The notes under the pieces are model-generated. The model searched no databases. It had not been told where the DNA came from and saw only the letters and a program-made list of their open reading frames with translations. From positions 7,874,001 through 7,938,000 of the forward strand of contig JAZBRS010000011.1 in assembly GCA_037176725.1 (NCBI GenBank): a stretch of DNA of 64,000 nt, in the 5' to 3' direction. The number at the start of each line of letters is the position of its first letter. Within the stretch, counting starts at the first letter, position 1. Positions 8,690 to 64,000 of this stretch are shown here, piece by piece. The translations under genes were made by a program, and so were the position numbers. Origin of the DNA: Posidonia oceanica. Taxonomy: Eukaryota; Streptophyta; Magnoliopsida; Alismatales; Posidoniaceae.

Positions 8690-8960
8690 TTTGGCACCGT
8701 TTTGCGTGCCCGCTTCGCTTTTGGCACCATTTTGCGTGTCTGCTTCGTCTTTGGCACTGTTTTACGTGCCTGCTCTATCTTTGGCACCATTTTGCGTGCC
8801 TGCTTTGTCTTTGGCACCGTTTTGCATGCCCGCTCTGTCTTTGGCACCGTTTTGCATGCCGTTCTTGTTTCTTGCACCGTTTCGCGTGCCGCTTTGTTTT
8901 CTGCACCGTTTTACGTGTTGGCTTTTTTCTTGCACTGTTTCGCGTGCCGTTCCTATTTCT
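8690..8960 (+). repeat. About 30-bp tandem repeats with GGCAC/GTGCC arms
   Basis: About nine units carry TTTGGCACCGTTTTGCGTGCC-like sequence, in which GGCAC and GTGCC can pair. The same array is in C's LTR on the opposite strand (about 61910-62045). It is not evident in D's or A's LTR, so it marks this subfamily. Confidence 0.8.
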
Positions 8961-9057
8961 CGCATCGTTTTGCGTGTCTTATGCCGTTTTCTCTTGCATG
9001 TCCCCTGCACTGCTTGGTTTTACTGCCGTTTTCTTTTTCACTTGCATTTGCATATAG

Positions 9058-9096
9058 GACAGTGATGCTTACTGCCTGGAGTTCTCACGAACCAGG
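9058..9096 (+). promoter_or_regulatory. Conserved double hairpin of the LTR
   Basis: Two adjoining inverted repeats are present: CAGT/ACTG around GATGCTT, then CCTG.GTTC/GAAC.CAGG with loop TCAC. The block recurs almost unchanged at 18911-18950 (D), 25794-25833 (E, minus), 41607-41642 (A, minus) and 61780-61815 (C, minus), while flanking DNA has diverged. I saw no match in B's LTR. A role in leader RNA structure is inferred. Confidence 0.75.
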
Positions 9097-9283
9097 TTTC
9101 GACCGGTTCGGAACACAGACAACGTTGCTGAGCACTTAGACTGCACGTTTACTTCCTTGCATTGCATCCCACCACTTAGAGCACACTTTTGAGCATTCAT
9201 TCAGGCATTCATTGGCATTTAGGCATTCAAACCTGCATTTTCCTGTGTATGCGAGCGTAAGCCTAGAAAGACCAATTCTCGGG

Positions 9284-9316
9284 CGTGTCGGGGGTGCCTA
9301 ACACCTTTCCCGCACG
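9284..9316 (+). promoter_or_regulatory. Conserved U5 stem-loop
   Basis: CGTG-CGGGG-GTG pairs with CAC-CCCCG-CACG around loop CCTAA (one C is T in this copy). The block is found in every LTR here: 19209-19241, 25565-25597, 28723-28756, 38025-38057, 41397-41432, 56324-56356 and 61557-61592. Some copies have compensating changes. Confidence 0.75.
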
Positions 9317-9499
9317 TAACAGGAGTCCTTGCCCAATCTTTTGGCCCGTAATAACCATATTACCCTCATCCTAGGCATGAGTCATATCATTTGCATTCAT
9401 TTGCATCTGTTTTCTTTTTGCATTGCATCTTTTGCTTGGTTTTGCATGTTAACTCACGCATTTCCTCCGATTTTCCTTGTCTCCCGATAATAGACACGG

Positions 9500-9510
9500 T
9501 GGCGACTCTG
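9500..9510 (+). other. Primer-binding-site-like fossil inside the LTR
   Basis: TGGCGACTCTG matches the start of the true primer-binding sites at 56896 and 25294, but here it lies about 175 bp inside the LTR end. Equivalent internal copies occur in all other LTRs of the window. Confidence 0.7.
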
Positions 9511-9675
9511 AATTGTCTTGTCTTCTTCTTTTCTTATCTTTTCTCCTCTGTTTTAAGTGTTTTCGAGTTGAGCCCTCCTCCTCGGACATAGCCGCTTATA
9601 GTAAGCCTGATTTCAATCGGTGCACATGAGCTTCTGGCAGTGTGCATGGACAATCTGAACACCAAGATTACTACA

Positions 9676-9680
9676 CCCCC
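9676..9680. repeat. Target-site duplication CCCCC, right copy
   Basis: Matches CCCCC at 3882-3886 on the other side of the solo LTR. Confidence 0.9.
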
Positions 9681-10849
9681 CGTCTCAAAACCAGGAGCCC
9701 ATTACCTTTAGGTTAGGGACAGCGGAAGCCTGCAAGCCAAAAAAAAAAATTAAAGAACAAGAAAGAAATAAGAAATGAAAAGAAAAAGCAACAAAAAAAA
9801 GGGGGGAGGAAAGACAAAAGTCAACCCCAGAAAAGAGGCAAGCAGCGTGATCCCGCCCCCTTCTGCCTATCTTAGAGAGGAACTAAAGTTTGTGCCTGGG
9901 AAATACACAAGTCCCACGGGGCCTTGCCACCCTTTCCTGGCAAGCAGCTCCCCAGCTCCAAACCAAGTGTGCCCACTACCTCCAAGCTAGGGATAAGGGA
10001 AACCTGCACACCTATGTGGGAGCTAAAGAAAAAAAAAATGATGATGATGAAAAGAGTAGGTGTAGGTCCTTAAGAGTTTCGGATGGAGCCTATCCTTACT
10101 ACACCACCACCCAAGCACCACCAATACCCATTCCGGAGTGCCACCAACAGTTAGGAATCCGAATAGAGTCTGGTGAATCAGAGACTGCTCCTTTCCTTTG
10201 CAGCAGGCATCAAGCACTTCATATGCTGAGGGCAATAGAAATTTAGTATAGATCATGCATGCATCTATCCACTCTCAAATCACTTCTTTTGCCCCTTTCC
10301 TCCCACTCTGCAAGGCTCAGCTCGGCGTTGGGACAGTACTTTTGCCAAGGCAGGTTGACCACCTCCAAGCCTCAGAACGGTCCATCACTGTCAGTGCAGC
10401 AGCCCAAAGAGTGCACTAGTAATCAGAGATAGGGCAGCCACTCCAGATGTAGTAGGACAACTTTGGCACCCCGTGGGGCCCCTCATGGGCCGTCGGGTCT
10501 GCGTAGTCAGGCACCGCCCCTAATCTCTTTGCGACTTCACTCCGGGCGAGCGAAGTCCCTTTCTACTTGTTTCCTTGCTCCGTGCAGGACAAGGACAAGC
10601 GTACCTCCTTTGTGACTTCGTTCCAGACGGATGAAGCCCCCTTCCCTTGTCTCCTCGCTCTACATGGACGAGGATAAGAGTGCCTTTTGTGCGAGTTCGC
10701 CCTGTGCAGGCAAAGCCCCCCTTGCATAGCCAAATGTGCTTAGATTTTATGATTTGACTGTTAGCTGTGACCTATGAACTGCTTTATCAGCTTTATATGC
10801 ACATCTGCTTCTCTGGCAGCTAGTATTATATGCCTGTACATGTTCTAGA
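9681..10849 (+). other. Element D spacer upstream of the PMD ORF
   Basis: The rest of the first spacer block (to about 9740) is followed by an A-rich stretch and a second, complete copy of the block (about 9810-10010). 10310-10360 matches 49195-49265 of A in reverse. At 10520-10725 three successive GACTTC../GAAGTC-like and CTTGT../ACAAG-like inverted pairs form a short hairpin cluster that resembles the big array of element A. No credible gene is present. Confidence 0.65.
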
Positions 10850-12110
10850 TTGATGAATAGCTTTGACTATAGGTACTCGAAGAGTCTACACCAGCCGCTC
10901 GCTTTCTCTCCTGCAATGGGTTTCCCTACCTTGGTGACTCCGACACATTGCTCCGGGACTCTCCGAGAGTGGATTGCCATGCTCACTGAGGCTGACCGTG
11001 AGAAGCTGAGCCTGTGGGGCATCCCACCCATGCTTTTGAAGGCTGCCGATGTTGAAGTAAGCCGACATCTTCTGTGCGCTGCTACAAGGTTCTGGAAGCC
11101 AGTGCACCATGTCTTTCGCTTCGGCAGGACGGAATTAACGCCAACGCTGGAGGAAGTATGCCGGATCTGTGGCATCTCCACGCTCATGGGGCCAGCTGTA
11201 CTCACAAGGCGTATTGGCTATATCGCCGTCTTGAAAGAGCTAACTGGGCTCTTCGTATAAAGCTACGAGAAGAGACTGGTCTACATCGACGGGCCTATAC
11301 GCGTGCTCCATCTGAACTACTTTGAGGAAGTCTCCAAAAAGCGCACCGCACTGGGGGATGAACTATGGCTTCGTGGCTTCGTCACCCGCTTCCTGGGCAA
11401 GCTAAACTTCAGCCATGGCCGGATGACGGTCGCTATTGAAGTTGCGGAGATCGCCCTCGCTGTGGTGACCCACCAAATCGACTTGACACTTGTCGTCGTA
11501 GCTGAGACCTATCGCGGGCTGGACCGCATTTCACACCGCTGCTGCCATTTTCATGGCTGCAGGGCTCTAGTACAGGTGTGGCTGGCCGGACATCTGGAGA
11601 TAGACATCCTGCACCTGCAGAAGCAGGCATTTGAGACATACTACAGCAGCAGCCACGCCAAGACCATCAAGATTGTCTACAAGGAGTATGAAAGGCTAGA
11701 AAGGCTGACAGATGATACAGTGACCTGGCGTATCATCCCATCTGCAGTAGAGCCATTCATTGTTTTCTTCAGCACCTGCGACATGCGACTAGTTGTCCTA
11801 CTGGGGTTCACCGAAGGCATGGAGTATCACCCCATCGCGACAGTTTGGTTTCCAGCAAGGGGCTTTTGTCGACAGCACAGCACCAAAGCTACTCCAGCCC
11901 TATCCATTCAGCACAGTCGCTGCCTCAACAGAGCTAGCCGACCTCATGCGCCATGGGGTGAAATCAACCGACATTGCAGCTATGAAGGGCTTAGGATGTA
12001 CTCCTGAGTATCTGACTGAAATGCAAGGGCTCTGGCCCATTAATGAGATCCCACCTGGTGCACCTTTGTTTCCCGACACCAGGAGGTCGAAGAAGGCCCG
12101 GACCAGCTAG
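10850..12110 (+). pseudogene. Plant mobile domain (PMD) ORF of element D
   Basis: The likely conserved start is the Met of MGFPTLV at 10916; the frame is open from 10850. It aligns along its whole length with the minus-strand ORF of element A at 47814-49016. PMD-type features are LTPTLEEVCRICGI (the usual L-x-D/E-V-x-x-x-x-G-L region), HGCRALVQVWL and IPSAVEPFIVFF. One TAA (11258-11260) and one frameshift near 11835 break it, after which the frame continues to PPGAPLFPDTRR. PMD proteins are known from plant MAIN-like genes and from transposable elements. The retroelement function is not established. The position between integrase and the polypurine tract matches element A exactly. Confidence 0.8.
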
Positions 12111-12479: not shown

Positions 12480-13920
12480 ATCTCTGCCGGGCTGGTAGCC
12501 CTAACTACCCGTTTGACAAGCGCGTTAGCATTGTCTATGTTCGTCATTTTTTCGATTCCAAGGACGCTTCAGCTGTCCCCTAGTATCATCCCTAATACCA
12601 GGGGCATCTTTTTTGTTGCCCTATGGTATCACTCTCTTCCTAGCGTTTTGTGCGTCTGCTTGCCTTTTTGCAAGCCCTTTGCATGACTTTTTGAAGTCAT
12701 GTCTGCCTTCCTTGTTTTCTTGCCTTTTTGCAAGCCCTTTGCATGACTTTTTGAATTCATGTCTGCTTTCCTTGTTTGCTTGCCTTTTTGCAAGCCCTTT
12801 GCATGACTTTTCGAAGTCATGTTCGCTTCCCTTGTTTGCTTGCCTTTTTGCAAGCTCTTTGCATGACTTTTCGAAGTCATGTCTGCTTTCATTGTTTGCT
12901 TGCCTTTTTGCAAGCCCTTTGCATGACTTTTCGAAGTCATGTCAGCTTTCCTTGTTTGCTTGCCTTTTCGCAAGCCCTTTGCATGACTTTTCAAAGTCAT
13001 GTCTGCTTTCCTTGTTTGCTTGCCTTTTCGCAAGCCCTTTGCATGACTTTTCGAAGTCATGTCTGCTTTCCTTGTTTGCTTGCCTTTTCGCAAGCCCTTT
13101 GCATGACTTTTCGAAGTCATGTCTGCTTTCCTTGTTTGCTTGCCTTTTTGCAAGCCCTTTGCATGCCTTTTCGAAGTCATGTCTGTTTCTTCCTTTCGCT
13201 TGCCGTTTTGCGAGCCCTTTGCATGCCCTTTCGAGGTCATGTCTGCTTGCTTCAAGTCCCTTTGCATGCCCTTTCGAGATCATGTCTGCTTGCTTCAAGC
13301 CCCTTTTGCATGCCCTTTCGAGGTCATGTCTGCTTGCTTCAAGCCCCTATGCAAGCCCTTTCGAGGTCATGTCTGCTTGCTTCAAGCCCCTTTGCATGTC
13401 CTTTCGAAGTCATGTCTGCTTGCTTCAAGCCTCTTTGCATGCCCTTTCGAGGTCATGTCTGCTTGCTGTTTCGCAAGCCCTTTGCATGCCCTTTCGAGGT
13501 CATGTCTGCTTGTTTTCTTGATGTTTCAAGGACGAGCCCTTTGCATGCCTTTTCGAAGTCATGTCTGCTTCCTCTTTTTGCTTGCCTTTTTGCGAGCTCC
13601 TTCGCGTGCCTTTCCGAAGTCACATCTGTTTGCTTCCCCCTTTCTGGGCTGGCAGCCCGAACTACTCGGATGACACCCGTCATAGCTATCCAACCCTTCT
13701 TTCAGTGCCACAGGCGCTTCGGCTGTCCCCTGGTATCATTCCTGATACCAGGGGCATCTTTTGCCACCCTCGGTATCTTCTCTGGGCTAGCAGTCCAAAC
13801 AACTCAGTTGACACTTGTCACCCTATCTGGCGTTCTTTCCTTGGGCCGATAACCCAAACTATCCAGCAAAGAATCTGTCAACTCCTTGGGTCGATAACCC
13901 AAACTATCCGGCAATGAGTC
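12480..13920 (+). repeat. Hairpin-array region of element D
   Basis: Palindromic motifs flank a 60-bp tandem array. Left side: GGGCTGGTAGCCC (about 12490). Right side: GGGCTGGCAGCCC (about 13648), ATGAC/GTCAT (about 13669), CCTGGTATC/GATACCAGG (13729-13752, nine perfect pairs), GGGCCGATAACCC and GGGTCGATAACCC. The same motifs, inverted, occur in A (45750-45800, 47300-47440) and E (19590-20370). Confidence 0.85.
12641..13640 (+). repeat. 60-bp tandem repeat with two hairpins per unit
   Basis: About nine regular 60-bp units (12661-13200) are followed by shorter variant units. Each unit has GCTTGC/GCAAGC around CTTTTT and CATGACTT/AAGTCATG around a TTCG tetraloop. In later units the second stem becomes CATG.CCT/AGG.CATG, so a T-A pair is replaced by a C-G pair while TTCG stays. 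Long ORFs on both strands arise only because 60 is divisible by three. Confidence 0.93.
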
Positions 13921-14320: not shown

Positions 14321-17300
14321 TGTTGACACCCCACTTTTGACCCCTGTTTTGTGGCTCTCTCTCTCTCTCTCTCTCTCTGGTGGAATGACTTAGAAAACCC
14401 CCACACAAAAAAAACCAGAAAATTAAAAACTTAGAAAACTAGAAACCAAAACCCTAGAAGAAACCAAGGTCAAACACCCTAAACCCTAGAACAAAACCCT
14501 AGGTCAAACCCCTCACAAAACCCTAGGTAACACTCATAGAAACCCTAGGAATCTCCCATCAAAACCCTAGGTTAAACCCTAGGTCAAACCCTAGAAGAAA
14601 CCTAGGTCAAACACTCACAAAACCCTAGGTTAAACCCTAGGTCAAACCCTAGAAAACCTAGGTAAAAACCCAAACCCAAAACCCTAGAGAAGCACTAGGT
14701 CACACCCATCTAAACCCTAGAAGAAACCTAGGTCAAATAGTCACAAAACCCTAGGTTAAACCCTAGGTCAAACCCTAGAAAACCTAGGTAAAAACCCAAA
14801 CCCAAAACCCTAGAGAAGCACTAGGTCACACCCATCTAAACCCTAGAAGAAACCTAGGTCAAACACTCACAAAACCCTAGGTCAAACCCTAGAAAACCTA
14901 GGTAAAAACCCAAACCCAAAACCCTAGAAAAGCACTAGGTCACACCCATCTAAACCCTAGAAAAGTACTAGGTCACAAAACCAAAGCCAAGCCCAAGCCC
15001 CCTTTCCTTCTCCCTATTCCATCTTCCTTTCTTTCTTTCTTTCTTTCTTTCTTCCTTTCTTTCCTTTCCTTTCCTTTCCTTTCTTCTTCTCCTCTTTCTT
15101 TTCTTTCTCTTCCTTTTAAACCAATTCAGCCCAACCCACTTCACTCATCCCCCTTCCTCTCCTTTTCTTTTCTTTTCCTTTTTTCATTCCATTTTTTCAG
15201 GCCCGGCCTACTCCCCTTATTTCATTTTTTCCTTTTTTTCAGCCACAGGCCCAGCCCACCTTCTCTTCTTTTTTCCTTTCTTTTTTCTTTTCTTCCACCC
15301 TTCCACCAGCCTGGCCCACTTCCCTTATTTCTTTTTTTTCCCTTTTTTTCAGCCACAGCCCTCGGGCCCGACCCTTCTCCCTTCCTTCTCTTTTCTTTTC
15401 TCTTTTCAACAGCCAACCCACAACACTCTTCCTCATCTTTCCCTCCTCTTTTGAATCCCGACTGCCCAACACTCAACCCCTCTGCACTCACCACCCCTCA
15501 CAACAACTCACAATAGCCCACACTCCACCCTCTGCACCACTTACTACCCGAAGGTTGCCGCATGCCACTGTCTGGTGGTGGCCGTCTCACAGAACAGCCT
15601 TTTGCCGACCTGCCCACACACTGCCACCACCTGCCAGCCACCTTTAGCCCTACTGTGCAAACCATCCCCACTCGAGTGTCCGGCCCCAAACAAAACCAAT
15701 CTTCCTCATCCCTTCAGCAGGGGGAAGAAGGAGAATTCACGAACCACAGCATAGAACCCATTTTGCTCCCACACAGCACAATAGCTTCCCATTTCCTTCT
15801 CCGAGTACCCACAACCATCTCAGACCCCCTCGCTACCCACCTTCACCTCCCTCAGCTCACCACGAAGCACCGAAGAGAGCCCTGAGCACCGAGAGAGCCA
15901 CACTACAAGAAGGAGAGGAAAAAATACCAGAGGGACCCAATTTCCAAACTAGCGTTCTGTGCGAGCAAACCTGCTTCTGAGCAGCTCCACACCTCCGCCA
16001 GATCACTAGCGACTGCCTCCGATCGCCGCACGCCGCCGTTGTCCTCCGTAACGCCGCTGCGACCTCTTGCCGGACTGTCGAACCCACCCAAGGTCAGTAG
16101 CACGCTCCGGCTATCGTCACAGGTAACAGAAGTAATTTTCAAGTTCCTTGCATGCCTATCTCGCTTTCTAGTTAGTTAGAAGTAGATTTAGAGCCCTGTA
16201 GCCCGTTATCGCCTCTGCCGCTACAGTCATCTTCCCCGACGAGCTCTGACAGCCGCCGCCGCGCGCCTAGTGCTCCGGACCTCTGCCGTTCCTCTAGACC
16301 CCCCCTCGAGCTTCGCCAGAGCACCAGAGACCTGCTCCAGCCCCTCGCGACCGTCGTCGGGGCTTCCTGCACCCGCTCCGCCTCTGTGATCACCGGACTT
16401 CTGCACCGACATCGACAGAGCGCCCCTGGCCAGCTCTGGCCTCCAGACCTTCCCTCGAGCCTCGCCGGACCTCCAGGAGCTTGACCCGACGCCGCCCGGG
16501 CTCCGCAGCTGCCTCCAGCTCCTGCTCCGCCCGCCGCTTCCCCTATAGCAGCCGCCGACGTCGATAGCGCGCCTCAGCCTCCGCCGCTCCTCCTAATCTG
16601 CTCCCCGAGCATCGCGAGACCACCAGGAACGTGGCCCAGCTCCGCCCTTGCACCGCCGATGCCTCCTACGCCCGCACCATCTCCAGCAACCTCTGCAACT
16701 GGCCACTGACGTCGACAGGTCACTTCGACCACCGTCATGTGCCGCTGAGACCGCCGGAGCCACCGGACGCACTGCCTCCAGCTTCTAGGAGTCTCAGGCC
16801 GACCAGCCGCTGCCGCACGTCGCCGCGACAGCCCCTTCTTCCCCTGCGAAGGTGCTGCAATGTCGGGCAACACTGTAGCACTGTAGTTGGGTATGGTTTT
16901 GATTTAAATTTTAGTTGATGCATTGAATTAAATTACTGCAAGTTATTTTTATTACTTTTGGGTCCAGCTGTGGTTTAAGAATCATTTAATTTTCGATTTA
17001 AATCATACTGCTTTACATTTTGGTCCATCATTTTAGTTTAATTGCACATCAGTTCTTCACGCATTCATTTAAATCATTTAAGTATTGTTTTAAATCATGC
17101 ATTCCAAATAAGTCTAGAGCTTTACTTTATTTACTTTACAGTCTTGTGCTGGTTTATAAATCATTTAATTGCACATTTAAACTATATTGCATTGAAGTAA
17201 AGTACTACAGGTTTTTATATTTACTTTCCAATTCAGTTTCAATTACATCATTTCATTTAATCTGCTTTTTTACCTTATTACATTGCATTTTAATCCTGTA

Positions 17301-19589: not shown

Positions 19590-20370
19590 CTGGTATCGAA
19601 CGCGGTGAAAGGCTAGCGAGTCCGTCAGGTAAGAGAAGTGATCACAAGTCGGATAACTTGTAACCACAAATGTAATGGGAATACCATACTCGAAGGTGTG
19701 GCAGAGGTCCGTAGACGCTCCAGTAACAGTTAGGGATGTCAGCCCGATTGCAGACGGAAATGTGATACCAGTGGGTAGCCAAAATAAAGATGCCCATGGT
19801 ATCGATGGAGAAACCAGGGGACAGCCGAAGCGCCCTTGGCATCAGAATGCAAAGTGGAGACAAAACTAACAAGTTTGCCAGCCGAGTAGTTAGGGGTATC
19901 AACCCAGATGCAGTGAGATGGATGTAAGGGCTCACCGTGCGAGGTGCAATGCCGGTGGGGAATGCAATGGGATAATGCAAGGGGAAATGTAGGGTGACAT
20001 TTTAACGGGTGTCAACCGAGCAGTTAGGGCTGCCAGCCCGGTGATAAGTTAACAGACTTATCGCCGGATAGTTAGGGCTATCAGTCCGAATAAGACATTT
20101 TGACCGGCGTCAACTGGGTAGTTAGGGCTGCCAGCTCGGTGAGGAGTTAACGGACTCATCACCGGATAGTTAGGGCTATCAACCCAATATAGACATTTTG
20201 ACGGGCGTCAACCGAGTAGTTAGGGCTGCCAGCCTGGTGCATAGGAATGCAAGATGATGTCGAGGAGAAAACAGGGTGACATTTTAACAGGTGTCAACCG
20301 AGAAGTTAGGGCTGCCAGCCCGGTGCATAGGAATGCACGATGATGCCGAGGAGAAAATAGGGACCCATCG
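19590..20370 (-). repeat. Palindromic motif array of element E
   Basis: Repeated TTAGGGCTGCCAGCCCGGTG-like hairpins (GGGCT/AGCCC) alternate with GACATTTTAAC..GTGTCAACC and with CACCGGATAGTTAGGGCTATC. The same pair of motifs flanks the big arrays of A and D. Confidence 0.8.
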
Positions 20371-26202: not shown

Positions 26203-27443
26203 TGTTGGACGCAGCAATTACCTGCATCCAAAGTTGGACGCAGGACCAGAGGGTGTCCAATGCTTAAAGAAGGAGAACAGTAGAAACATGCAATCTGGAA
26301 AACCATACATTCTAGATGTATGAATGCGATGCAAATGCAATGAAGCAGTATAGGACATGAAGATCATGCTAGGCAGTCAAGGCAACCAATCAGAAATGAT
26401 TTAAGAGCAAGATACAAGCATAGAACATGATTTAAACATTGCAAGATGTTGGATGCCAGAAAGTAGGGCGTCCAACATTGGACGCAAGAGGGCTCTGCGT
26501 CCAACACAAGGCAAACAGCAGCTCAACAAAATAGCATGCAAACGATAGAGGAAACACCATGGCATACATTTAAATTACTATAAACAAGTGTAGGCTAAGC
26601 ATGCATACATGGATCATACAAAAAAATCCAAGAAGGAAAGCATCTGCAAAGCATGCACAGAGGAAACACAACCAGTGTGTTGGACGCAAGCACCACCTGC
26701 GTCCTATGTAGGACGCCAGCAGTAACTGCGTCCAACACAAGGGAAGGCACAGACATGAAAGAACCTGCATAAAACCTCTGATGAAAAGGCCAAGCAAACT
26801 TGGGAACAGTTGCCAAAGGGGCTAGATACAACCATACATGCATGGATCAAATGAACTCAAAGGATAATAACGCCATGCAAGCATCATGGCAAGAGCAATT
26901 AAGCAGAAATGTAGGATGCAGAGTACATCTGCGTCCAACATAGGACGTAGAGTGTACCTGCATCCAACACATAAAAGATGCAAAACAATCTGCAAGGAGG
27001 AACTGAGCTCAAAACCCACTCAAATATGCATGCAAGCTACTGAAAGCGGGCTAAACCAAGGCATGCAACCATAGATCAAACATGTATCAAAAATAAATAC
27101 AACATTCAAGTATTAAAATACATGTAAGCTAACAGAGGCATAGGACGCTGGATACACCAGTGTCCAACGTAGGACGCGATGCAGTCCAGCATCCAACACT
27201 GAAGAACAGCAAAGGTAACCAGAGGCAAAAACATGGATCTGAGCTAGGATCGAAGCATGATACAGGCATGATAGCAACTGGAAGTATGGAAGAAAGTATG
27301 CAACATTAATCCATAGATAAAAGCATCCAGATCATGGCAATATAGAAGCAAAAATAAAACAAAATAAATAAAACACCTGTAGGGTGTTGGACGCTACCTC
27401 AGGGCATGTCCAACATTGGACGCACTAGCATGTGCGTCCAACA
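26203..27443. repeat. Six nested-palindrome modules at about 230-245 bp spacing
   Basis: Modules are at 26203-26262, 26447-26506, 26678-26737, 26910-26969, 27139-27198 and 27385-27443. Each is 59-60 bp: outer arms TGTTGGACGC/GCGTCCAACA enclose inner arms of the same type. Inter-module DNA is only weakly similar, so the palindromes are the conserved part of an old tandem repeat. Confidence 0.9.
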
Positions 27444-28279
27444 GGTTAGGAAGTTTCCTGGCCAAGGACAGTGGCCAAATCAGCCAAAAATCCCAAAGTG
27501 ACTTACTAGGAAGCAAGAGTGGGTGACGACGAGCAAGTCCATATGCTTGGCGGCAGAAATGGGTGAGTGGAATGCTCCACCCACCTCCTCCTCCTTACGG
27601 CCGGTGGCCGAGGCTATTCCGGCCAACCAAGGGGATATGTGTGTGTGTGCACTACCCTATCATGCTACTACATGCACGAGCTAGCTAGGGGTGAAGAAAA
27701 CTTACCTGGTCATGGCTTTCAGGGTTGTATTTGCACTTCGCCGGCAATGAGGAAGAAGACGGTAGGGTAACTCCGGCGAGCTCTTCTGGGCATAAGGGAG
27801 GCTCAGGAGAGGTGGCTCAAGACTAGGGAGTGATCGAGGGAGATCGCACAAGGTCTCAGAACTCTCAATTTTCCAGGAGGTCGGGTGTGTAGTGCTGCTG
27901 AACTCTCTGAAGTGTTGGGTTCTGGAGGTGTTTTGTTGGGTTGTCTGTGAAGGTTGCAGAGGTGGCAGAGGTCGTGGCAGGCTTTGGCAGGGTCGTGGTG
28001 AGTGGGGAAGCCATGCGGGGTGTCAAGCGAGTTAGTGGGATGCCAAGAGGTGGACGGAAAAGTCTTGGTGCGGCAAAGCGTAGGCGACTGGCTTAGTGAG
28101 GGTGTGGTGAGCGGGAGACGCACCAGTGGGGGAGTGGACACCGTGGCAGGCCGAGTTACTGGCCTTGGTGCATAGTGGGGGTGAGTAAGTGGTCGAGGAG
28201 ACTGGTAATAAGTGTAGGTGGACGGAGGAGAGGACAGGCGATGAGCCAGAGGCTACAGTTGCCGGTGCAACTCTCGACT

Positions 28280-44000: not shown

Positions 44001-45206
44001 CGGAGGGAGTTGCTAGTGGCCTGGGGAGTCTGAGGCCAATCAAAAGTGGATTTGCTGCTTAGAATCTGGAGAACGGATTTTGGGTGCTCATGGAGAATTC
44101 TGGTGGAATTGGTGCTGCTGTGGCTCTCTCAGGCGTCTCTCACGCTCACTGTGCTCGTGGGAGGCTAGGGGAGATGATGGTGAAGTGCTGCACTGCATGA
44201 GTGGCTGGGGAGGGGGAATTGCAATGGAGTTGGGTTATGCGGGCTGAAGGGAAGAAGTTGGGTTTCTGGGCTCGGTTGCAGCTGCTGCTGTGCTGGTTTG
44301 TGCAAGTGAGTGAGTTGCTATGAAGTGAGGCTGGGCAGGGGGTGTTAGCACTGAGGTGGTTGAGCAAGTGGAGGAGGAGTTAGGCATGCTGTCTGGTGGA
44401 AGTCGGAGGCGGTGGTGAGAGGCTATGGGAGCGCGAATTGCGGGTAGGATGCGAGTGGGAAGTAAGTGAGGTTGGGAGGTTGAGTAAGTGGTGGTGGGGT
44501 TCAGAGAAAAAGAAGGAAGAAGAAGGGAGAAGAAGGCAGTAGAAGGAAATGGAAGGAGAGGAAGGCGGGTGAAGAAGAAAAGAAGAAAAAAACGGGCGAT
44601 GGGCTGAGCCCGAGAAGGAAAGAAATAAAAAAAGGAAAGAAAAAAAGGAGGGAGTTGCTGGGCCAGGCCCGAGAGAAAAAAATAAAAAAGAAAAGGAAAG
44701 AAATGAAGGAAGGAGGAAGGGAAGGGAGAAAGAAAGAAAAGAAGGAAAAGAAAAGAAAAAGGAGGTGATAGGCCGACTGTAGGCTGGGCTTAGAAAATGG
44801 GTGGAAAAGGAGAAAAAAGAAGGGGAGAAAGAGAGTGGGCTGGGCTTAGGAAAACGAGAGGAAAAAAAGAAAGAAAGAAGAAAAGAAAGAAGGAGAAGAA
44901 AAAAAAGGAAGAAAAAGAAGGGAAAGAAAGAAGAAAAGAAAGAAGGAGAAGGGCTTGGGCTTGTGCATGGTTTATGCGCTAACCTAGGGTTAAACCTAGG
45001 GTTTAGGTGTGTGCTAACCTAGGGTTTGACCTAGGGTTTAGCTGTGTGCTAACCTAGGGTTTGACCTAGGGTTTTAAGTGAATGCAAACCTAGGTTTTTC
45101 TAGGGTTTAGTGTGGTTTTGGGTTTGGAAATGGGTGTTGTTTTGGATTTGGTTTGAGGGTTTCAGAGAGAACCACTAATTGAGCATATCAAAATGGGGTG
45201 TCTACA
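41059..45206 (-). mobile_element. 3' LTR of element A, 4.1 kb
   Basis: On the minus strand it starts TGTAGACACCCCATTTTGAT and ends TAGATTACTACA. From its start: telo-box-like CCTAGGTTT motifs (44970-45110), purine tract on + (44500-44960), GC-rich zone with CACAG|GTAACG donor (43900), GCATTTAGGTCC tract (42200-43430), double hairpin (41607-41642), U5 stem-loop (41397-41432) and primer-binding-site fossil (41212-41220). Confidence 0.9.
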
Positions 45207-45219
45207 AATGCCCCTCCTT
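45207..45219 (-). other. Polypurine tract of element A
   Basis: On the minus strand it reads AAGGAGGGGCATT, directly before TGTAGACACC. Confidence 0.8.
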
Positions 45220-45713
45220 GAGCGAGGTCAAGCGAATCGAGACCGTGGCTCAGGGTTGACAAGACACCCCACCTGACGCCGGAGAGAGCCAGATGTTGCT
45301 GTTGGCGTGAGTCACTTGTTCGGTGGATATACCAAAAATCATGACTCATTGCTAAAATGCGAATGCGAATGCAGATGCGAATGCTGAAGCAATGTTGATA
45401 TTTAAAGTGAACCTGTGCTAATGTTTGCCACGGCGAACTCCACTAGGGAGACGCGGGCGATGCATGAATGTGATACCGATGCTAATGCTGATGTTGAACC
45501 AATATGTACTAGTGCATGTGCAGATGCTGTGCATGAGGAGATGCTGTGCTGATGCATGTGAGTGCTAGTGATGCGAATGCAGCTATCTAACATGGGATGC
45601 TGGTGTAGTGCAATGTGATGCATGCTGATGCGATGCGATGCAAGAGAAAGTAGAAAGTGCTATGATGCAACGCGAGAAGTTGGCTGCTAGTCCAAACTTG
45701 CGCAAAAGTGGCT
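45220..45713 (-). other. Element A 3' untranslated region
   Basis: It holds the block GGGGTGTCTTGTCAACCC shared with D and a stretch of GATGC/ATGCT-rich simple sequence. No gene is seen. Confidence 0.65.
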
Positions 45714-47440
45714 CCAAACAAGACTAACGTGTTTGCCGTCCACGACGCCAGACATTTTAGCGGATGTCATTCGAGCAGTTAGGGCTGCCAGCCCGAAAGG
45801 GGAGCAGATGCAGCTTGTCCTCGCCCGAGGAAGCAAGCGAGCAGCCAGAGCCACACAAAAGGGGCAGGATTCCAAGAACGTGCGAGGGAAGAGAGGCATC
45901 ACTTCCGGCGAACTGGAAGGCGAGCAAGAAAGCAAGAAAAGGGGAGGGCAAGCGGGGCTTCATCTGCCCAGAGTGAAGCTACGCAAGGGTAGATCCTCAC
46001 ACGAGGATACAAGGAAGGACTTCATGCACACGAAGCCTAGGAAGAGCTTGTCCTCAGACGAGGAAGCAAGCAGGCCTGACCTCGCACGAGGAAATAGGCA
46101 GGGGACTTCATCCGCACGAAGCGAAGTCGCCAGAGGGGGCTTGTTCTTGCACGAGGAAGCAAGCACAATCTCCGTCCGGACGGAGCCAAAAAAGGCTTGT
46201 CCTCACACGAGGAAGCAAGCGGGGGATTCTGTGCAGACGAAATCCAGGGGGCTCGTCCTCGCATGAGGAAACAAGCAGGGCCTGATCCTCGCACGAGGAA
46301 ACAAGCAGGGGACTTCGTCCGCATGGAGCAAAGTTGCCAAAGGGGGCTTGTCCTCGCACAAGGAAACAAGCAGGGCTGATCCTCACACGAGGAAACAGAC
46401 AGGGGACTTTGTCCACACGGAGCGAAGTCGCCGAAGGGGGCTTGTCCCCGGCCGGGGAAACAAGCAGGCCTGATCTTCGCACGAGGAAACAAGGGAGACT
46501 TCGTCCGCAGGGAGCGAAGTCGCAGGGGACCTGTCCTCGCACGAGGAAGCAAGTAGGCTTGTCCTCACCCGAGGAAGCAAGCAGACGGGACTCCGTCCGC
46601 ACGGAGCAGAGTCGTGCAAAAAGAAAAAAAGGCTTGTCCTCGCCCGAGGAAGCAAGCAAGCTTGTCCTCACCCAAGGAAGCAAGCAGACAGGACTCCGTC
46701 TACACGAGGAGGAGTCGTGCAAAAAGAAAAAAAAGCTTGTCCTCGCCCGAGGAAGCAAGCAAACGAGACTCCATCCACACAGAGTGGAGTCGTACAAAAA
46801 GAAAAAAAGGCTTGTCCTTGCCCAAGGAAGCAAGCAGGCTTGTCCTCGCCCGAGGAAGCAAGCGAAGGGGACTTCATCCACACGAAGCAGAGTCGTAGGG
46901 GGCTTGTCCTTGCATGAGGAAGCAAGCAGGGGACTTCGTCCGCACAGAGCGAAGCCGCAGGGGGGCTTGTCCTCACACAAGGAAGCAAGCGGGGCACACA
47001 TAGGCTTGTCCTCGGCCGAGGAACAAGCGGGCCTGATCCTCGCACGAGGAAACAGGCAAGAACTCCATCCACATGAAGCTGTTCTTGGGCTTGTCCTCAC
47101 ATGAGGAAACAAGCGGGGCTGATCCTCGCATGAGGAAACAAGCAGGGGCTCCATCCGCACAGAGCCGAGCAAAGGCTTGTCCTCGTACGAGGAAGCAAGC
47201 GGGCCTGACCTCGCACGAGGAAACAGGCAGAGGACTTCGTCCGCACGGAGCGAAGTCGTGCAAAGAGAAAAGAAAGGGGAAGGGGAGCGATACCATAGGG
47301 TAGCAAAAAAGATGCCCCTGGTATCAGGAATGATAACAGTGGATAGTCGAAACGTCCCTGGCATCGAAAAAGCGAAGAATGCAGACAAAATTGACGTGTT
47401 TGCCAAACGAGTAGTTAGGGGTACCAACCTAGAGGATGAT
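45714..47440 (-). repeat. Covarying hairpin array of element A
   Basis: About 26 hairpins of type CTTG-TCCTCG..CGAGGA-GCAAG alternate irregularly with about ten of type GACTTCG..CGAAGTC. Many units keep pairing through double changes: CCCCG/CGGGG (46441-46464), CCTTG/CAAGG (46811-46834), GACTCC/GGAGTC (46692-46716), GACTCCA/TGGAGTC (46767-46791). The array is bordered by GACAT/ATGTC and GGGCTGCCAGCCC (about 45750-45800) and by a CCTGGTATC motif (about 47316). Apparent ORFs on both strands are repeat artefacts. Confidence 0.93.
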
Positions 47441-47813
47441 CCAAGCGAAAATGCTGGGGCGTTGCTTGCTTGATTTGACGGCATGGGTCTGCAGAGGTTC
47501 TGGCATGCATGTTGATTGCAGGGGGGCTTTGCCGTAGCTCCCTTGTGCTGAGAGTCCTAGTTGCTGCTACTAACTCTCTGAAATGCTTGATGCGTCTCCT
47601 GCAGCATCCTGGTAGGAACAAATATGCATAAGGCGGGGCATGCACCACAATCAGGTGACGTGAAACATCTTTGCATTGATTGAATCTCTGGTTACACGCC
47701 TATGCTTGGCCAAAACAAGAGATACAGCATGATTCAAAAAAACTGAACAAGCAAGCAACCGCACGGATGCTCTAGCTGATTCGGGCCTTCTTTGATTTCC
47801 TGGAGTTAGGGAA
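47441..47813 (-). other. Non-coding gap between PMD ORF and array
   Basis: No gene or clear repeat was seen. Confidence 0.5.
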
Positions 47814-49016
47814 CTAAGGGGCGCCAGGTGGGATCTCGCTGATGGGCCAGAGTCCCTGCACCTCAGTGACATACTCAGGAGTGCATCCTGAGCCTTCTGC
47901 TGCTGCAATGTCCATCGACTGTACTCCATGCTGCATCAAGTCAGCTAGTTTTATTGTGGCAGTAGCTAAACTGAGAGGATAGGCCTGCAGGAGCCTGGGC
48001 GTGGTGCTATCAACAAAGGCGCATTGCCGCAAGCCAAACTGCCACATGACCCAGATAAGGTGGTATTCCACACCCCCAGTGAATCCTGACAACACCACGA
48101 GTCGCATGTTGCGGGTGCTAAAGAAGACAGTGAATGGCTCAGCTGCGGATGGGATGATACACCAAGTTACTGCATCATCTGTCAGCTCGGACAACTTCTT
48201 GTACTCTTCTGGGACGCTCTTGATGGTCCTTGCATGGCTGTTGCTATAGTATGCTTTGATGGCATGCCTCTGAGGGTGCAGAATATCCATCTCTAGGGGT
48301 GTAGCTAGCTAGATCTGCACGAGTGCATTGCAGCTATGGAAGTGGCGGCAGCGGTGTGCGCGGTAAGTCACTACGAGGACGATTGGTGCCAGGTCAATCT
48401 GCCGAGTCACCACAGCAAGTGCAATCTCGGCAATCTCGATTGCAACCATCATCCGGCCATGTGTGAAAATCAACTCGCCTAGGAAGCAGGTGACAAATCC
48501 CCAGAGCCACAGCTCGTCTCCGAGTTCAACATGCTTTCCCAGAGTCTCATCAAAGTATGCTAGGCGGAGCAGGGGCATGAGCCCACTGGTGCAGATTAGT
48601 CTTTGGTGGCAGCCTTCTGTAGAGAGCCCAGACAGTTGGCGCAGGACTACATTGTGCCTGTCGCGCCTTACAAAAACAGTTGGCCCCATGATCTTGGAGA
48701 AGCCGCAAATCCGACGTACCTCCTCCGGCGTAGGCGTCAGCTCTATCCTGCCAAAGAAAAAGACGTGATATGCCGATTTCCAAAACCTTGCCACGGCGCA
48801 CAAGAGATGCTGACTCACTTCAACGTCGGCTGCCCTCAGAAGCTTGGATGGAATGCCCCATGTGCGCAGCTTCTCATGGTTAGCTTCAGTGAGCTTGCCA
48901 ATCCACTCTCGCAGGGTCCCGGAGCAATGCATCAGGGTAACCAAGGTGGGGAAACCCATTGCGCAAGAGGGAGAATGCAGGAAGCTGGTGCAAAATCCTC
49001 GAGTACCTATAACCAA
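47814..49016 (-). pseudogene. PMD ORF of element A, one TAG from intact
   Basis: A single frame of about 400 codons is interrupted only by one TAG near 48309, after NALVQI. The start may be the ATG at 49016 or the conserved Met of MGFPTLVT at about 48959. Residues match D's ORF throughout: CSGTLREWI, VARFWKSAYHV, LTPTPEEVRRICGF, GDELWLWGFVT, IPSAAEPFTVFFSTRNMRL, PISEIPPGAP. PMD assignment is by resemblance to plant MAIN-like/transposon PMD proteins. The length and full collinearity with D show that the ORF belongs to the retroelement. Its function is unknown. Confidence 0.82.
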
Positions 49017-50247: not shown

Positions 50248-53200
50248 CCACTGATAGTACTTCTTGAGGTAGCACGTGTTGACTAGCTCTGACTGCCCAA
50301 CCTGGTCCATGTCCTCAAGAATTGCTGCGCCGCCAGAAAATGCCTACTTGACCACAAAGGGGCCGCGCCAGTTGGGTCAGAATTTGCCTCGACCATCTGG
50401 CAGGTGAATGGCTCGCAGAACGAGATCTCCTAGCTGGAAGCTTCTAGGCTTCACTTTCTTCAGATATGCTCTAGCCATCCTCTTCTGGTAGTAGCGAGCG
50501 TTGTGCATTGCTTGCAATCTGCACTCATCAATCAGGTTGAGCTGGACGCAGTGGTCTTCAACCCACTCTGCTTCCTCCAGTTCAGCTTCCTTTAGGATCT
50601 GCAGTGAGGGCATCTCTACTTCGACGGGTAGCACTGCCTCCATGCCGTATGCCAGCGAATACGGGGTGGCTCCTGTCGAGGTCCACATTGATGTCCTATA
50701 CGCCCAAAGTGCGTACGGAAGCTTGTCATGCCAGTCCTTATGTGTTTCTGCCATCTTTTTCAATATTTTCACAATGTTTTTGTTGGCAGACTCCACTGCT
50801 CCATTCATCTGCGGCCGATAGGGCGAGGATCTATGATGCTTGATCTGGAGGTTTTGCAGATACCCCTCGATCCTCTTTGCAATGAAGTTTGTGCCGTTGT
50901 CAGAGATGATTGCATACGGGACCACATACCGAGCGACGATGTTGTTTTTGATAAACTTCTCTATCACCGCAGCTGTGACTGTCTTGTAGGAGGTTGCCTC
51001 CACCCACTTAGTGAAGTATTCTATCGCTACCAGGATGAAGCGATGACCATTCGAAGCAGCAGGGTGTATGGTGCCGATGACATCAATCCCCTAGGTGGAG
51101 AAGGGCCATGGCGAGGACATGCTGTGCAGCTGCTGCGGGGGAGCGTGCATAAGATTACCATAGATCTGGTAGTTGTGGCATCTACGCACAAACTAGCAGC
51201 AGTCTGTCTCCATGGTTGACCAGAAGTAGCCCTAGAGCATGATCTTCTTGGCCAGCAGCATGCCGTTCATATGCCGGCCGCAAGTACCTGCATGAACTTG
51301 GAGCATTAACACGTCAACCTCTGGCTTGCTTAGGCAGCGTAGGAGCATCTGATTGTATGATCTTCTGTATAACTGCCCTGCTCCTAACACATACTTTGAC
51401 GCCAGACGTGCCAAAGTTCTTTTATCTGCTGCTGAGGTGCCAAGCGGGTGGCTGCCAGACTCCAGGAAGGTCTTGATATCATGGTACCAAGGCTAGTCTT
51501 CTACTAGATCTGCCTCCTCTATGCTCATGCAATACGCAGGCTACTCCATGCGGGTATCTGATACATCCACTGCATAGTCTTCAGGTACGCTGAGCCAGGA
51601 CGCCAAGGTTGCTAGCGCATCTGCATATACGTTCCTTGCCCTGTTCATGTACGAGAAGCGGATGCTTGCAAATTCTTCTATCAGCTTTAGCAGATGTTCG
51701 TGATATGGCACAAGCTTTGGATCCTTTGTTCTCCAATCGCCATTCACTTGGGAGATCACTAGCATGGCATCGCCGTGCACATGCAGCTTCTGCGCTTCAT
51801 GCTCAAGCGCGACCTTCAATCCCAATATGCAAGCCTCATACTCTACTTCATTATTAGTGCATTTGAAGGTCAGCTTCCTTGCAAAGGGGATCATCTATCC
51901 CTACGGTGTTGTCAACACTACGCCTATGCCTCGACCCTTTTTGTTGACAGCGCCATCAAAGTACAGCTGCCACTGCTCTTGGTCTTCAGGGTCCTCCTTG
52001 CTAGAGTCCTCCATTGCAAAAAGGATGTCCTCATCCGGGAGCTGCGTCCGGAGAGGCTGGTATTCAGGCAAGGGAAAGTCAGCAAGGTGATCTGCCATGG
52101 CTTGGCCCTTCATGGCTTGCTGTGTGACGAAGGTGATGTCGTACTGAGACAACAACACCTGCCACTTAACGCATCTGCCCACCATGGCTGGCTTCTGGAA
52201 GAGGAACTTGATGGAGTCATGCCGACATAGAAGCCAAACTGGGTACGCCATCATGTAGTGCCTCAGCTTCTGTGCTGCCCAAAAGAGAGATAAGCAGGTC
52301 TTCTCTATTGCATTATACCTGGCTTTGCAATCATTGAATTTCTTGCTCAGGTAATAAATGGCATGCTCCTTTCTACCAGATTCGTCATGCTGGCCCAAAA
52401 CGGCGCCCATGGAATGCTACGTGGTAGAAAGGTAGAGAAGCAGAGGTCTCCCTAGCATGAGAGGAACCAAAACAGGAGGCTTGATCAGAAGCTGCTTGAT
52501 TTTGTCAAAGGCAGCTTGGCACTCCTCGCTCCAGTTGATTTGTGCATGCTTCTTCAGGAGCTTGAAAATCGGTTCACAGATAGGCGTGAGCTGTGTGATG
52601 AACCGACTAATATATTGCAGGCGTCCGAGCAGGCCTCGGACTTCTTTTTCGGTCCTAGGGGGTGGCATGTCCATGATGGCTTTTGCCTTCATCAGGTCCA
52701 CTTCAATCCCCCTTGGCTAATGATGTAGCCCAGGAGCTTACCAGAAGATACCCCGAATACGCATTTGCTGGGGTTGAGGCGCAGCTTGTACTTCCTCAAG
52801 CGGTCAAAGAGCTTCCTTAGATAGGCAAGGTGATCCTCAGGCTCTTTGGACTTGGCAATCATGTCATCCACATAAACCTCAACTTCCTGGTGCATGAGGT
52901 CATGGAATAATGTAATCATTGCCCTTTGATAGGTTACGCCAGCATTCTTTAGCCCAAACGGCATGACTTGGTAGCAGAAGACTCCCCAAAGGACGATAAA
53001 GGAGGTTTACTCCATGTCTTCTTCTGCCATTCTAATTTGGTTATAGCCGGAGAAGCCGTCCATAAAAGAGAGCATTTTGTGCCTTGCAATGTTGTCAACT
53101 AGGACGTCAATGTGTGGTAGTGGGAAATCGTCCTTAGGACTCGCCTTGTTCATGTCCCGATAGTCGATGCACATGCGAACTCGGCCATCCTTCTTGGGCA

Positions 53201-61000: not shown

Positions 61001-61193
61001 GTAGGGGCATGCCACAACAAGCCCCTCTTCGTCACAGTGCAGTACAACGATCTCCACATCCCTCTGACCTTGGTTGATAATGGCACAGGCCTTAATGTCT
61101 GCCCCTTGCGCACTGCAAGTAAACTCGGATTCAAAGTCGAGGATATCACAGCAGTCACTAAAGGGATGACATCGTTTGACAACACGCACCACG
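58011..61193 (+). pseudogene. gag-pro: Gag-protease of element B
   Basis: It starts MAQRVSEPMF (ATG 58011); a Pro-rich N-terminal part follows. The capsid-like region is FEYRDLCYFPEAVLPANFRVLDFDKYNGKG-type sequence near 59007-59100, with KWFTSLDMASIRTW and YVGRWRALAS. An Asn-rich tract (59596-59690) is followed by a zinc knuckle CNYHRVEGHSTDNY in which the last Cys is Tyr. After a frameshift near 60390 come the linker and protease (FSSDELPPVGACHNKPL, LTLVDNGTGLNVCPLRTA, Asp of VDNG as the catalytic candidate). About ten stops, nine of them TAG, interrupt it. Element C cuts the protease after TSFDNTHHV. Confidence 0.9.
59596..59690 (+). repeat. AAC trinucleotide repeat encoding poly-Asn in gag
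   Basis: (AAC)n with AGC/TAC interruptions gives runs of Asn with Ser and Tyr just before the RRRDQPKP basic stretch. It is in frame with gag. Confidence 0.9.
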
Positions 61194-64000
61194 TGTAGTA
61201 ATCCCAGTGTTCAGATCGTCCATGTACACTGCCAAAAGCTCGGGTGCACCAATCAAAAGCAGGCTCACTATAAGCGGCTATGTCCGAGGAGGAAGGCTCA
61301 ACTCGAAAACACTTAAAACAGAGGAGAAAAGATAAGAAAAAAAGATAAGACAATTCAGAGTCGCCACCGTGTCTATTATCGGGAGACAAAGAAAATCGGG
61401 GTAATGCGTGAGTTAACATGCAAAACCGAGCAAAGGATGCAATGCAAAGCAATGCAAAGGAAAACAAATGCAAATGAATGCAAATGATATGACTCATGCC
61501 TAGGATAAGGGCAATATGGTCATTACGGGCCAAAAGACTAGGCAAGGACTCCTGTTACGTGCAGGGAAGGTGTTAGGCACCCCCGACTCGCCCGAGAATC
61601 GGTCTTTCTAGGCTTATGCTCGCATACGTAGGGAAATGCAAATTTGAATGCCTAAGTGCCAATGAATGTCTAAATGGATGCTCAAAGGTGTGCTCTAAGT
61701 GATGGGATGCAACGCAAGGAAGTAAACGTGCAGTCTAAGCACTCAGCAACGCTGTCTGTGTTCCAAACCGGGCGAAACCTGGTTCGTGAGAACTCCAGGC
61801 AGTAAGCATCATTGCCCTATATGTAAATGCAGGCAGAAAAACAAAGCGGCGGTAAAACCAAGCAATGCAGGCGGCATGCAAGAGAAAACAGCATAAAACA
61901 CGCAAAACGATACGAGAAACGGAAGTGGCACGTGAAACGGTGCCAAAGGCGAAGCGGGCACGCGAAACGGTGCCAAAAACAGAGCGGGCACACAAAACGA
62001 TGCCAGGAGCAAAGTGGGCACGCAAAACGGTGCCAAAACAAGTGAGATAAAACACCAGTAAAGCCATGCAGATGCTGGTGCAAAGAGAAAGAGCAGGAGA
62101 AGCAAAGCGGAGGCAAACAGCGCAAGTGTGACAACGAACGTTGTTTAAGGACCACACAATGTAAGTGTGAAGACCTACAAAGGGGAAGGGAAGCAAGTGG
62201 GAGGATTACCACTATTCTGTGACCATTTCCCACCAAAGTGTCCCACGATGTGTCTCACACGCTGCCAGAAGCTCGTGATGTGATTGGATCATGGAAAAGG
62301 GGGAAGAAAGTCGCAATTAGTGATGAATCCAGGGGAAAAACTCAACCTAAAACACTGAGAGTACGCGAAAAGGGGAGACAGAGTTGATAGACAAGGAGAG
62401 AAGGTGCTAATCTACATGCTCGAGAAAGCAGAAAGCAAAAACAATGCATGCAATGCAATTGATGTGTAAATGTATGCTGTGCAGGGGTTCAGGAGGACTT
62501 ACCTTGGAGATCTGAAGCCTGATCTGAGAAATGCTTGGTCTACATTGAAGTGCGCTCCACCGGGGTTGTCCAGGTAGCTTGGTTGAGAAGATCCGGCTGC
62601 CCGATCAGAAGATATGCTGCCTTCAAGGCAGAGGGACCAGAACAGGGGAGAAGAATGGATCTAAGTGTAAAGGAGGTCCTAGGGGTGTGCAAAACAAGTC
62701 CTCCCATGTGAATGGGAGCTAGGAATGCTTAAGTGTGTGCAAAAATGTCAAATGCAAAGATGCATGGGTGCAATGCATGCAAAAATGCAAGAAAAGGACC
62801 TAAGAATGACTTTTCAGAAAACTTAGGGGCCTATATGCAATTTTTGAAAAAGTTGAGGACCTAAATGCAAGGATTTTGAAAAGCTAGGGCTTATATGCAA
62901 GGTTTTTGAAAACTTGGGGGTCTGAGTGCAATTTTACAAAATGCAGGGTTTAAAATGCAATTTAATAAGGTAAACATGCATTTAAATAAGTTTTGAAATC
63001 ATGTGGAGGACTAATGTACAATTTGAAAACATGTAGGGGTTGAAATGCAATTTTATAAGGTAAAACTATGATTTTGAATGGTCTGTGAATTAATTAGTGG
63101 ACCTATGTGCAATTTCTAAATATGCAAGGGCTAAAATGCAATTTTATAAGCAAAAGTATGCATTTAAATGAGTTTTATAAACATGTAGAGGACCTATGTG
63201 TAATTTTAAAACATGCAGGGTCTAAAATGTAATTTTATAAGGAAAAATGTTAAAAAACAGATGCTGTGCATGCAAATGGGGGACTTATGTGCAAAAATCA
63301 GAAAGCATGGGAAAAAATGCAATGTAGTAAGAAAAGATTGAAAATAAAATGATTTATCAACAGATCAGAGGACTAAAAAGCAAATAAAGAAAAATGCAGG
63401 ATTAAAATGCAATTTACTAAGGTAAAATCAGAGTATTAAATGAGATTATCAACTAAAGGACTAACATGCAAAAATAAAAAACTACAGGACTAAAAAATAA
63501 AGAAGAAAATCTATGTTTGAACTACTGTAGGACTAATAAGTAAATAAAATAAATAGCAGGACTAGAAAATAAATGTGCAGAAACTTAAATGAACTGTAAA
63601 TGGACTGGAATGTAAATAAAATAAATGACTGGGCTGGAAATAAAGAAAATAAATAAATAAATAAACTGTAACTGCAGAGGACTGAAATGAAAATAAAAAT
63701 ACATGCTGGGCTAGAAATAAATTAAAGCTTAAAGGAAAACACAGCAGGAGAACTAACTAGCAATTAATCAGATTTTTAGGGTTTTCATGCAATTTCATAT
63801 GATTTAAATTCAAACTTAAATGATTTTTAAACGATGGCAGGACTGGAAAGTAATAACATAAAAACAGGAGGCAAAAATGCAATATTTGGCAAAAATATCA
63901 TGGTTGGCAAAAATAAGTGCACAGTAAAATCACAGCAACCATGGTCACTGTAGCAGTTGCTACTAGTGACCATGAACGGAGGAGGAGGCCGGCTGGAGCT
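61194..64000 (-). mobile_element. LTR of element C, incomplete
   Basis: On the minus strand its end is GGGATTACTACA (61194). It carries a primer-binding-site fossil (61358-61366), U5 stem-loop (61557-61592), double hairpin (61780-61815), 30-bp repeats (about 61910-62045), CCAAG|GTAAGTCC site (62512) and the GCATTTTAG tract (62760-63900), and runs off the window in the GC-rich zone. It is the closest relative of the solo LTR. CCACG (61189-61193) is the candidate target duplication. Confidence 0.9.
61910..62045 (-). repeat. About 30-bp tandem repeats in C's LTR
   Basis: Four or more units of GGGCACGCGAAACGGTGCCA type, the reverse complement of the array in the solo LTR. GGCAC/GTGCC arms are kept. 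Confidence 0.8.

Follow-up and report, generated by a model that had tools for sequence, protein, structure and literature searches.

Tandem arrays between pol, or an extra open reading frame (ORF), and the 3' long terminal repeat (LTR) are described for Ogre, other Tat and Retand elements, with monomers that are family-specific and of unknown function (PMC7004042, PMC6317226 and PMC11963269, as far as the available text of each goes), and the last of these sources describes the origin of the arrays, like their function, as unknown. The same partly available texts report that tandem arrays of large plant retrotransposons can seed satellite DNA (PMC7004042) and that a PMD extra ORF is present in 57% of Ogre elements (PMC6317226). 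Here we analyse a 64,000-nucleotide stretch of the Posidonia oceanica genome (GenBank assembly GCA_037176725.1, contig JAZBRS010000011.1, positions 7,874,001 to 7,938,000 of the forward strand), referred to as the window and numbered from its first letter. It holds a minus-strand Tat/Ogre-like Ty3/gypsy element, element A, and a related plus-strand element, element B, and at the same place in both stand repeated short stem-loops, arranged in modules, whose arms change together.

The closest described counterparts are the hypervariable repeats in the 3' untranslated region (3'UTR) of Tat/Ogre elements (Macas 2009, cited in PMC7004042; PMC6317226), which, on the available text, have the same location, tandem units that vary between families, a PMD ORF and long LTRs. 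Unlike those repeats as they are described there, the units in the window are alternating hairpins with covarying arms. The terms 'hairpin', 'palindrom' and 'secondary structure' are absent from the main text of PMC7004042, 'hairpin' and 'secondary structure' are absent from both PMC6317226 and PMC11963269, and in the latter 'palindrom' occurs solely in a cited title. About half of the elements in PMC11963269 have tandem arrays at this place, as here, whereas nearly all clusters in its available portion carry an antisense TRP28 ORF and the extra ORF here is in sense orientation and PMD-like. A preliminary description of this DNA, made from its letters, had named no described retrotransposon region with such a build, claiming to know of none. 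That was too strong, given the arrays known at this place in Ogre, other Tat and Retand elements; what appears to be new, as far as the open-licence literature goes, is the build from covarying hairpins, of which, going by titles and abstracts, we found no description there for a 3'UTR array of any LTR element, such absence being no proof.

Array A occupies 45813-47257 on the minus strand, with the PMD-type ORF on one side and the polypurine tract of element A on the other, as had been proposed. Using a profile built from the sequence alone, nhmmer resolves it into 42 units, 27 of class 1 and 15 of class 2, which follow one another mostly in modules of the order 1-1-2 and in some of the order 1-2, with TRF periods of 62 to 103 and of 178. 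The two classes thus stand as the preliminary description had them, but its count of about 35 hairpins in 45714-47440 does not, and a scan of 45600-47300 found no unit in 45714-45812 or 47258-47300. In element sense (minus strand) the consensus is GCTTG-CT-TCCTC-GTGC-GAGGA-CAAGC for class 1 and GACTTCG-C-TCC-GTGC-GGA-CGAAGTC for class 2, each with ten pairs, a 4-base loop and a bulge in the 5' arm of two bases (class 1) or one (class 2); the units at 46046-46070 and 47232-47257 are examples of the two. Both bulge bases are kept in 26 of the 27 class-1 units and the bulged C in all 15 of class 2, and the mean majority letter is 0.92 in stems versus 0.59 in flanks for class 1 (0.79 versus 0.56 for class 2). 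All ten pairs are standard in just 17/27 class-1 and 6/15 class-2 units. The second class-1 slot of a module is often filled by a variant, type 1b (7 units), and by eye its outer stem is incomplete on the plus strand in four of the seven (46282, 46375, 46470, 47118); on the minus strand unit 46282 is complete by way of G-U, and those at 46074, 46375, 46470 and 47118 are incomplete or slipped. The alignment score of the two class consensuses is matched by 0/2000 letter shuffles and by 9/2000 random hairpins of the same design, and it is plausible, as a lead only, that the classes may share an origin through paired insertions and deletions.

Double-sided changes can be followed in single units, all on the minus strand: T-A has become C-G on both arms of the class-1 unit at 46440-46464, two pairs have changed on both arms of the class-2 unit at 46767-46791 (one of them CpG-exposed), and three have done so in a divergent class-2 unit at 45950-45984 (two CpG-exposed). 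The four stem pairs quoted in the preliminary description are all found where it had placed them, although as instances of compensation CCTTG/CAAGG and the last pair of GACTCCA/TGGAGTC are CpG-exposed, a setting in which two independent deaminations could mimic compensation from C-G to T-A.

Across array A, pairing holds in 94.0% of 266 cells in class 1 and in 87.3% of 150 cells in class 2, and when one arm is slid by 1-3 columns it falls to no more than 54% in class 1 and 51% in class 2. When columns were shuffled, the percentage paired, the number of both-side cells and the covariation score were each reached by 0/500 shuffles in either class. Less striking results came from counting the pairs changed on both sides, where 4/500 (class 1) and 56/500 (class 2) shuffles reached the observed value, and from counting further pair types (39/500 and 46/500). 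When half-units were exchanged, the halves of one unit folded together better than halves drawn from different units on both strands, with the observed value reached by 0/20000 permutations on the plus and 2/20000 on the minus strand for class 1, and by 0/20000 and 24/20000 for class 2. A plain count of perfect stems of at least 6 bp does not single out array A (7 versus 2.98 in shuffled sequence, maximum 7), because its stems are divided into 5+5 or 7+3 bp around the bulge; it does single out the main array of element B (16 versus 1.84, maximum 5).

Shared descent was modelled with a purpose-built null of the R-scape kind, in which the number of changes in each column is kept and the changes are placed on random branches of a tree of the units. 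It was first run on the plus strand, for class 1 also without the seven type-1b units (20 units), and the final version used the sense strand, with the CpG and element-B runs. Its trees come from 36-37 columns and the cells it counts are non-independent events; five class-2 cells with T-A to C-G, for example, may represent two or three events. Cells changed on both sides are complementary in 6 cases and not in 0 for class 1, and in 12 versus 2 for class 2, so that pairing is restored in 18/20, where the null gives means of 6.8 restoring and 14.4 not. Of 2000 simulations 37 reach 18 complementary cells, and none reaches both that number and the proportion. With CpG-exposed pairs removed, 14 cells are complementary and 2 are not (null 4.1 and 8.8), and 1/2000 simulations reaches number and proportion. 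Taken singly the classes give less: 208/2000 by cell count, which is weak, and 14/2000 by pairs affected for class 1, and 60/2000 and 96/2000 for class 2. Despite the limits of the null, the proportion of complementary changes is far from it. At several pairs a wobble step stands beside both end states (in class 2, for instance, 7 G-C, 5 G-U and 2 A-U at pair 13-25, and 9 A-U, 2 G-U and 2 G-C at pair 8-30). Taken together, the shuffles, the half-unit exchange and the both-side changes in excess of the phylogenetic null support what the preliminary description had claimed, that in array A pairing itself is kept beyond tandem-repeat decay or shared descent, also when CpG-exposed pairs are left out. 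Its interpretation is thereby supported in part; the roles that it had suggested, in genome packaging, small-RNA production or protein binding, perhaps by the PMD protein, are conjectural.

Hairpin arrays also occur in the related element B, one at the place that corresponds to array A and a second one upstream. The pol regions of A and B are 78% identical over 2540 bases and the stretch from PMD to 3'UTR 68% over 1972 aligned positions, and at blastn settings that join the two pol regions the arrays stay unjoined. In both elements, then, a tandem array lies between the last ORF and the polypurine tract or 3' LTR and differs between the two relatives. The main array of B, 12658-13626 on the plus strand, alternates a GCTTGC..GCAAGC class with a CATGACTT-TTCG-AAGTCATG class; the outer stems known from the two A classes (GCTTG/CAAGC, GACTT/AAGTC) can still be made out in it, and the tips are replaced. 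Because the array is homologous in position and yet largely different in sequence, pairing is better kept than sequence. In its 18 class-2-like units all 7 both-side cells are complementary, where the null gives 0.4 that are and 1.1 that are not (30/2000 by cell count); six of the seven fall at one pair and are probably one event, so that the seven probably reflect two. Near-identical, recently amplified hairpins of this class are the most stable, with -10.0 kcal/mol in 7 of the first 8, and the remaining 10 range from -2.9 to -7.3 kcal/mol, which fits both decay by age and selection on units.

The second array of element B lies upstream of its PMD-type ORF, at 10527-10723 on the plus strand, and was recognised with covariance models built from array A; its units are of A type, in the class order 2-1-2-1-2. 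The class-2 model gives three matches with E of 0.00065-0.0012 over the window, and the class-1 model two weak ones, with E of 0.037 and 0.51 over the window and, when filters are switched off and the search is limited to a stretch of 4.8 kb, of 0.0027 and 0.039. The class-2 units form 8, 9 and 7 of the ten pairs, and the last of them has two complementary both-side changes relative to A. Since 1088 of 127928 window positions score at least 8 pairs, it is the model score and not the pair count that identifies this array. The stretch folds with z of -2.2 and -2.0 on the two strands, and 4 and 5 of 200 shuffles do as well. The matching stretch of element A (49330-49100) gave no model match and folds like its own shuffles (z -0.24).

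The explanation we favour, at a probability of roughly 40%, is that in PMD-bearing Tat/Ogre-like elements the arrays form a structured RNA domain that acts in cis, within the 3' untranslated portion of the genomic RNA. In its favour are the kept pairing, the wobble steps, the stronger conservation of stems than of flanks, the persistent bulge, the two alternating hairpin classes of element B with both-side changes of their own, and windows of both arrays that rank among the best-folding of 425. The transcript would fold into a row of compact hairpins that could act jointly as a many-valued binding platform, its ligand most likely being Gag or a host export adaptor, and the bound platform might then single out unspliced genomic RNA to be exported and packaged. 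With many weak and similar sites, single broken units and fast sequence change would be tolerated as long as most units fold. Read in element sense, a place after the last ORF and before the polypurine tract suits a signal in the 3'UTR. According to the available part of PMC12786077, Ogre elements carry functional introns, and direct studies of RNA export of plant LTR elements are reported to be lacking. The same source describes the RTE of IAP and the MTE of musD in mouse, which are likewise cis-acting structured RNAs of LTR elements; those are complex structures with a demonstrated export function, whereas here there are many simple hairpins known from sequence alone. More tentatively, the 'hypervariable' 3'UTR of PMD-bearing Tat/Ogre-like elements may be a fast-evolving, modular RNA-structure domain serving the genomic RNA, in which what is inherited would be the alternating row of hairpins and not its sequence, and which could stand on either side of the PMD gene, as it appears to do on both in element B.

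Several observations weigh against a structural RNA domain. Its evidence comes from two elements of one window, both with interrupted ORFs. Sense-strand G-U cells are more frequent than A-C cells (31 versus 13), yet mutations in non-stem columns run in the same direction, and with that background corrected no excess of G-U is left (33 to 22 events in stems, 46 to 32 in the background; Fisher p = 1.0). Array A also folds about as well on the plus strand: in 300-base windows compared with shuffles, mean z is -3.6 and -3.4 on the two strands (9 windows), against -5.5 and -5.4 for array B (6 windows) and -0.8 over all 425 windows. All five units of the upstream array in B fold better as antisense than as sense RNA. 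At covarying class-1 pairs there are A-C half-steps (two C-A at pair 8-29 and two at 17-22), class-2 loops are conserved like class-2 stems (0.82 versus 0.79), the bulge of element A is not present in the main array of element B, and pair 7-18 of the class-2-like units there is mismatched in 10 of 18.

Arms that correct one another need not imply selection on structure. According to the available text of PMC8794818, template switching can give rise to RNA hairpins and compensatory changes and also preserve them, and arrays of functionless palindromes, re-paired by arm-to-arm switching during reverse transcription or DNA replication, would be a possible though on balance unlikely account of what we see; four units (46170, 46440, 47004 and 47175) indeed contain perfect zero-loop palindromes of 14-16 bases. 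Such switching should leave inverted loops, which occur in 0/42 units, and should erase the asymmetric bulge beside the stem, which persists in 41/42. Moreover, none of the 18 complementary both-side changes adjoins another in one unit (multi-base tracts being judged by eye), and wobble half-steps are common in other units, so template switching is disfavoured as the sole cause. Selection could instead act on the units: if reverse transcriptase stalls at hairpins, with strand transfer between co-packaged genomes made more likely, well-folding units would be the ones duplicated, and array growth would keep pairing intact. This mechanism we consider rather unlikely, although no observation contradicts it and, like template switching, it is a serious rival. 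Amplification goes by blocks that are not the same in A and B, the recently amplified class-2-like hairpins of array B fold best (age alone could give the same), and A-type hairpins recur at a second site in B, all of which would be expected of it; against it, array A was amplified by blocks that contain poorly paired units.

A less eventful history, in which ordinary hypervariable 3'UTR repeats descend from a founder that was palindromic by chance and compensation reflects CpG decay on both arms together with shared descent, is improbable and already disfavoured. CpG-exposed pairs (class-1 17-22; class-2 13-25 and 17-22) do hold 4 of the 18 complementary both-side cells, and cell counts do not reach significance for class 1 by itself, but the 14 against 2 cells that are left once those pairs are removed, and the same trend on other sequence in element B, speak against it. 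Similar folding on both strands, with no strand bias after background correction, would also suit a role at the level of DNA, as cruciforms or as symmetric sites in double-stranded DNA that a dimeric protein, for example the PMD protein, would bind. We regard this as very improbable: symmetric binding sites should keep their sequence, and here unit sequences diverge while symmetry stays; nor does unit spacing have a clear helical phase (coherence 0.24 at 10.5 bp, with no null run). That the array encodes a repeat protein is barely credible, in spite of a 458-codon sense ORF (46108-47484, minus strand) through most of it. Unit starts occupy all three frames (12, 8 and 7 in class 1 and 5, 3 and 7 in class 2 for remainders 0, 1 and 2), and 8 of 41 spacings are divisible by 3, with unit starts set by hand at the first model position. 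The ORF reads one unit in different frames, is most likely an artefact of stop-poor repeats, and was rejected as a coding array.

Tandem arrays are common in this part of large plant retrotransposons. If the constraint on them is on pairing, sequence comparison examines the wrong property, their function becomes testable, and they would include a candidate for a cis-acting signal by which the RNA of plant LTR elements is exported or packaged. Beyond retrotransposons, organelle DNA of Volvox likewise has many short palindromic repeats that form hairpins; in the available text of PMC2670323 these are scattered in intergenic DNA and introns, whereas the hairpins here are modules of a retrotransposon. 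Rfam gave 0 matches at the gathering score across the window. In IMG/VR the DNA pattern of the hairpin unit had 0 matches, and patterns of the PMD-type protein and of an RNase H segment matched 8 and 3 places, none of which was confirmed as a relative.

The assignment of element A follows from its order of domains, which in sense direction is RNase H, a second RNase H-like domain, integrase, PMD-type ORF, array, polypurine tract and 3' LTR. On the minus strand lie the RNase H domain adjoining reverse transcriptase (51901-52410, PF17917, 77.5 bits), the second RNase H-like domain RVT_3 (51544-51894, PF13456, 73.2 bits), which we take to be the archaeal-type RNase H, and the integrase core (50380-51090, PF00665, 42.2 bits against a cut-off of 32.6), that is, the domain order of Tat/Ogre elements. 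The PMD-type extra ORF, 47814-49016 on the same strand, is split into two ORFs by an in-frame stop that ends the first at 48309. The part at 48309-49016 matches PF10536 at 23.2 bits (cut-off 34.9) and PF24924 at 22.8 bits (cut-off 26), and no family matched 47814-48290. Read by eye, the polypurine tract lies at 45207-45219 and the 3' LTR runs from 45206 down to about 41055, both on the minus strand. An LTR at 61193-64000 is about 75% identical to this 3' LTR in its best stretch, so it may not be its partner. Element B has a domain order like that of A, with PF17919/PF17917 followed by PF13456, and interrupted PMD/DUF7745-type ORFs at 10778-12007 on the plus strand (PF24924 22.1 bits, cut-off 26; PF10536 19.2 bits, cut-off 34.9). 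The E values of PF10536, 4.7e-5 in A and 7.8e-4 in B, belong to scores that are both below the curated cut-off.

Further repeats and hairpins surround these elements. Array B is flanked by a block with a CCCCTGGTATC-AGGAAT-GATACCAGGGG hairpin, altered at 12570-12630 and perfect at 13740-13790, and the block also occurs once beside array A, at 47285-47360, with mismatches. Within element B, between pol and PMD, 6952-9676 (plus strand) is 78-87% identical to the LTR at 61193-63988 and may be a nested solo LTR. Immediately ahead of B's pol stretch, 75-846 consists of about 27 copies of a 29-bp repeat with GATAG..CTATC arms. Repeats of AAACCCTAGG type lie near the LTR starts of B and A (14449-14975 and 44978-45114), and the windows over them fold well. 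Other well-folding windows include 14401-15000 and 26701-27600; two tandem repeat pairs with TAGGACGCA..TGCGTCCTA-like arms are found at 26678-26969, and several of the better-folding windows are spread across 26.7-27.6 kb. A third related stretch, 19990-20370, has repeats of 86-98 bp in which hairpins can be recognised by eye (TTGAC-GGGC-GTCAA, GGGCT-GCC-AGCCC and CGGTGATAAGT..ACTTATCGCCG); between two copies, one pair of these differs on both sides and another is broken.
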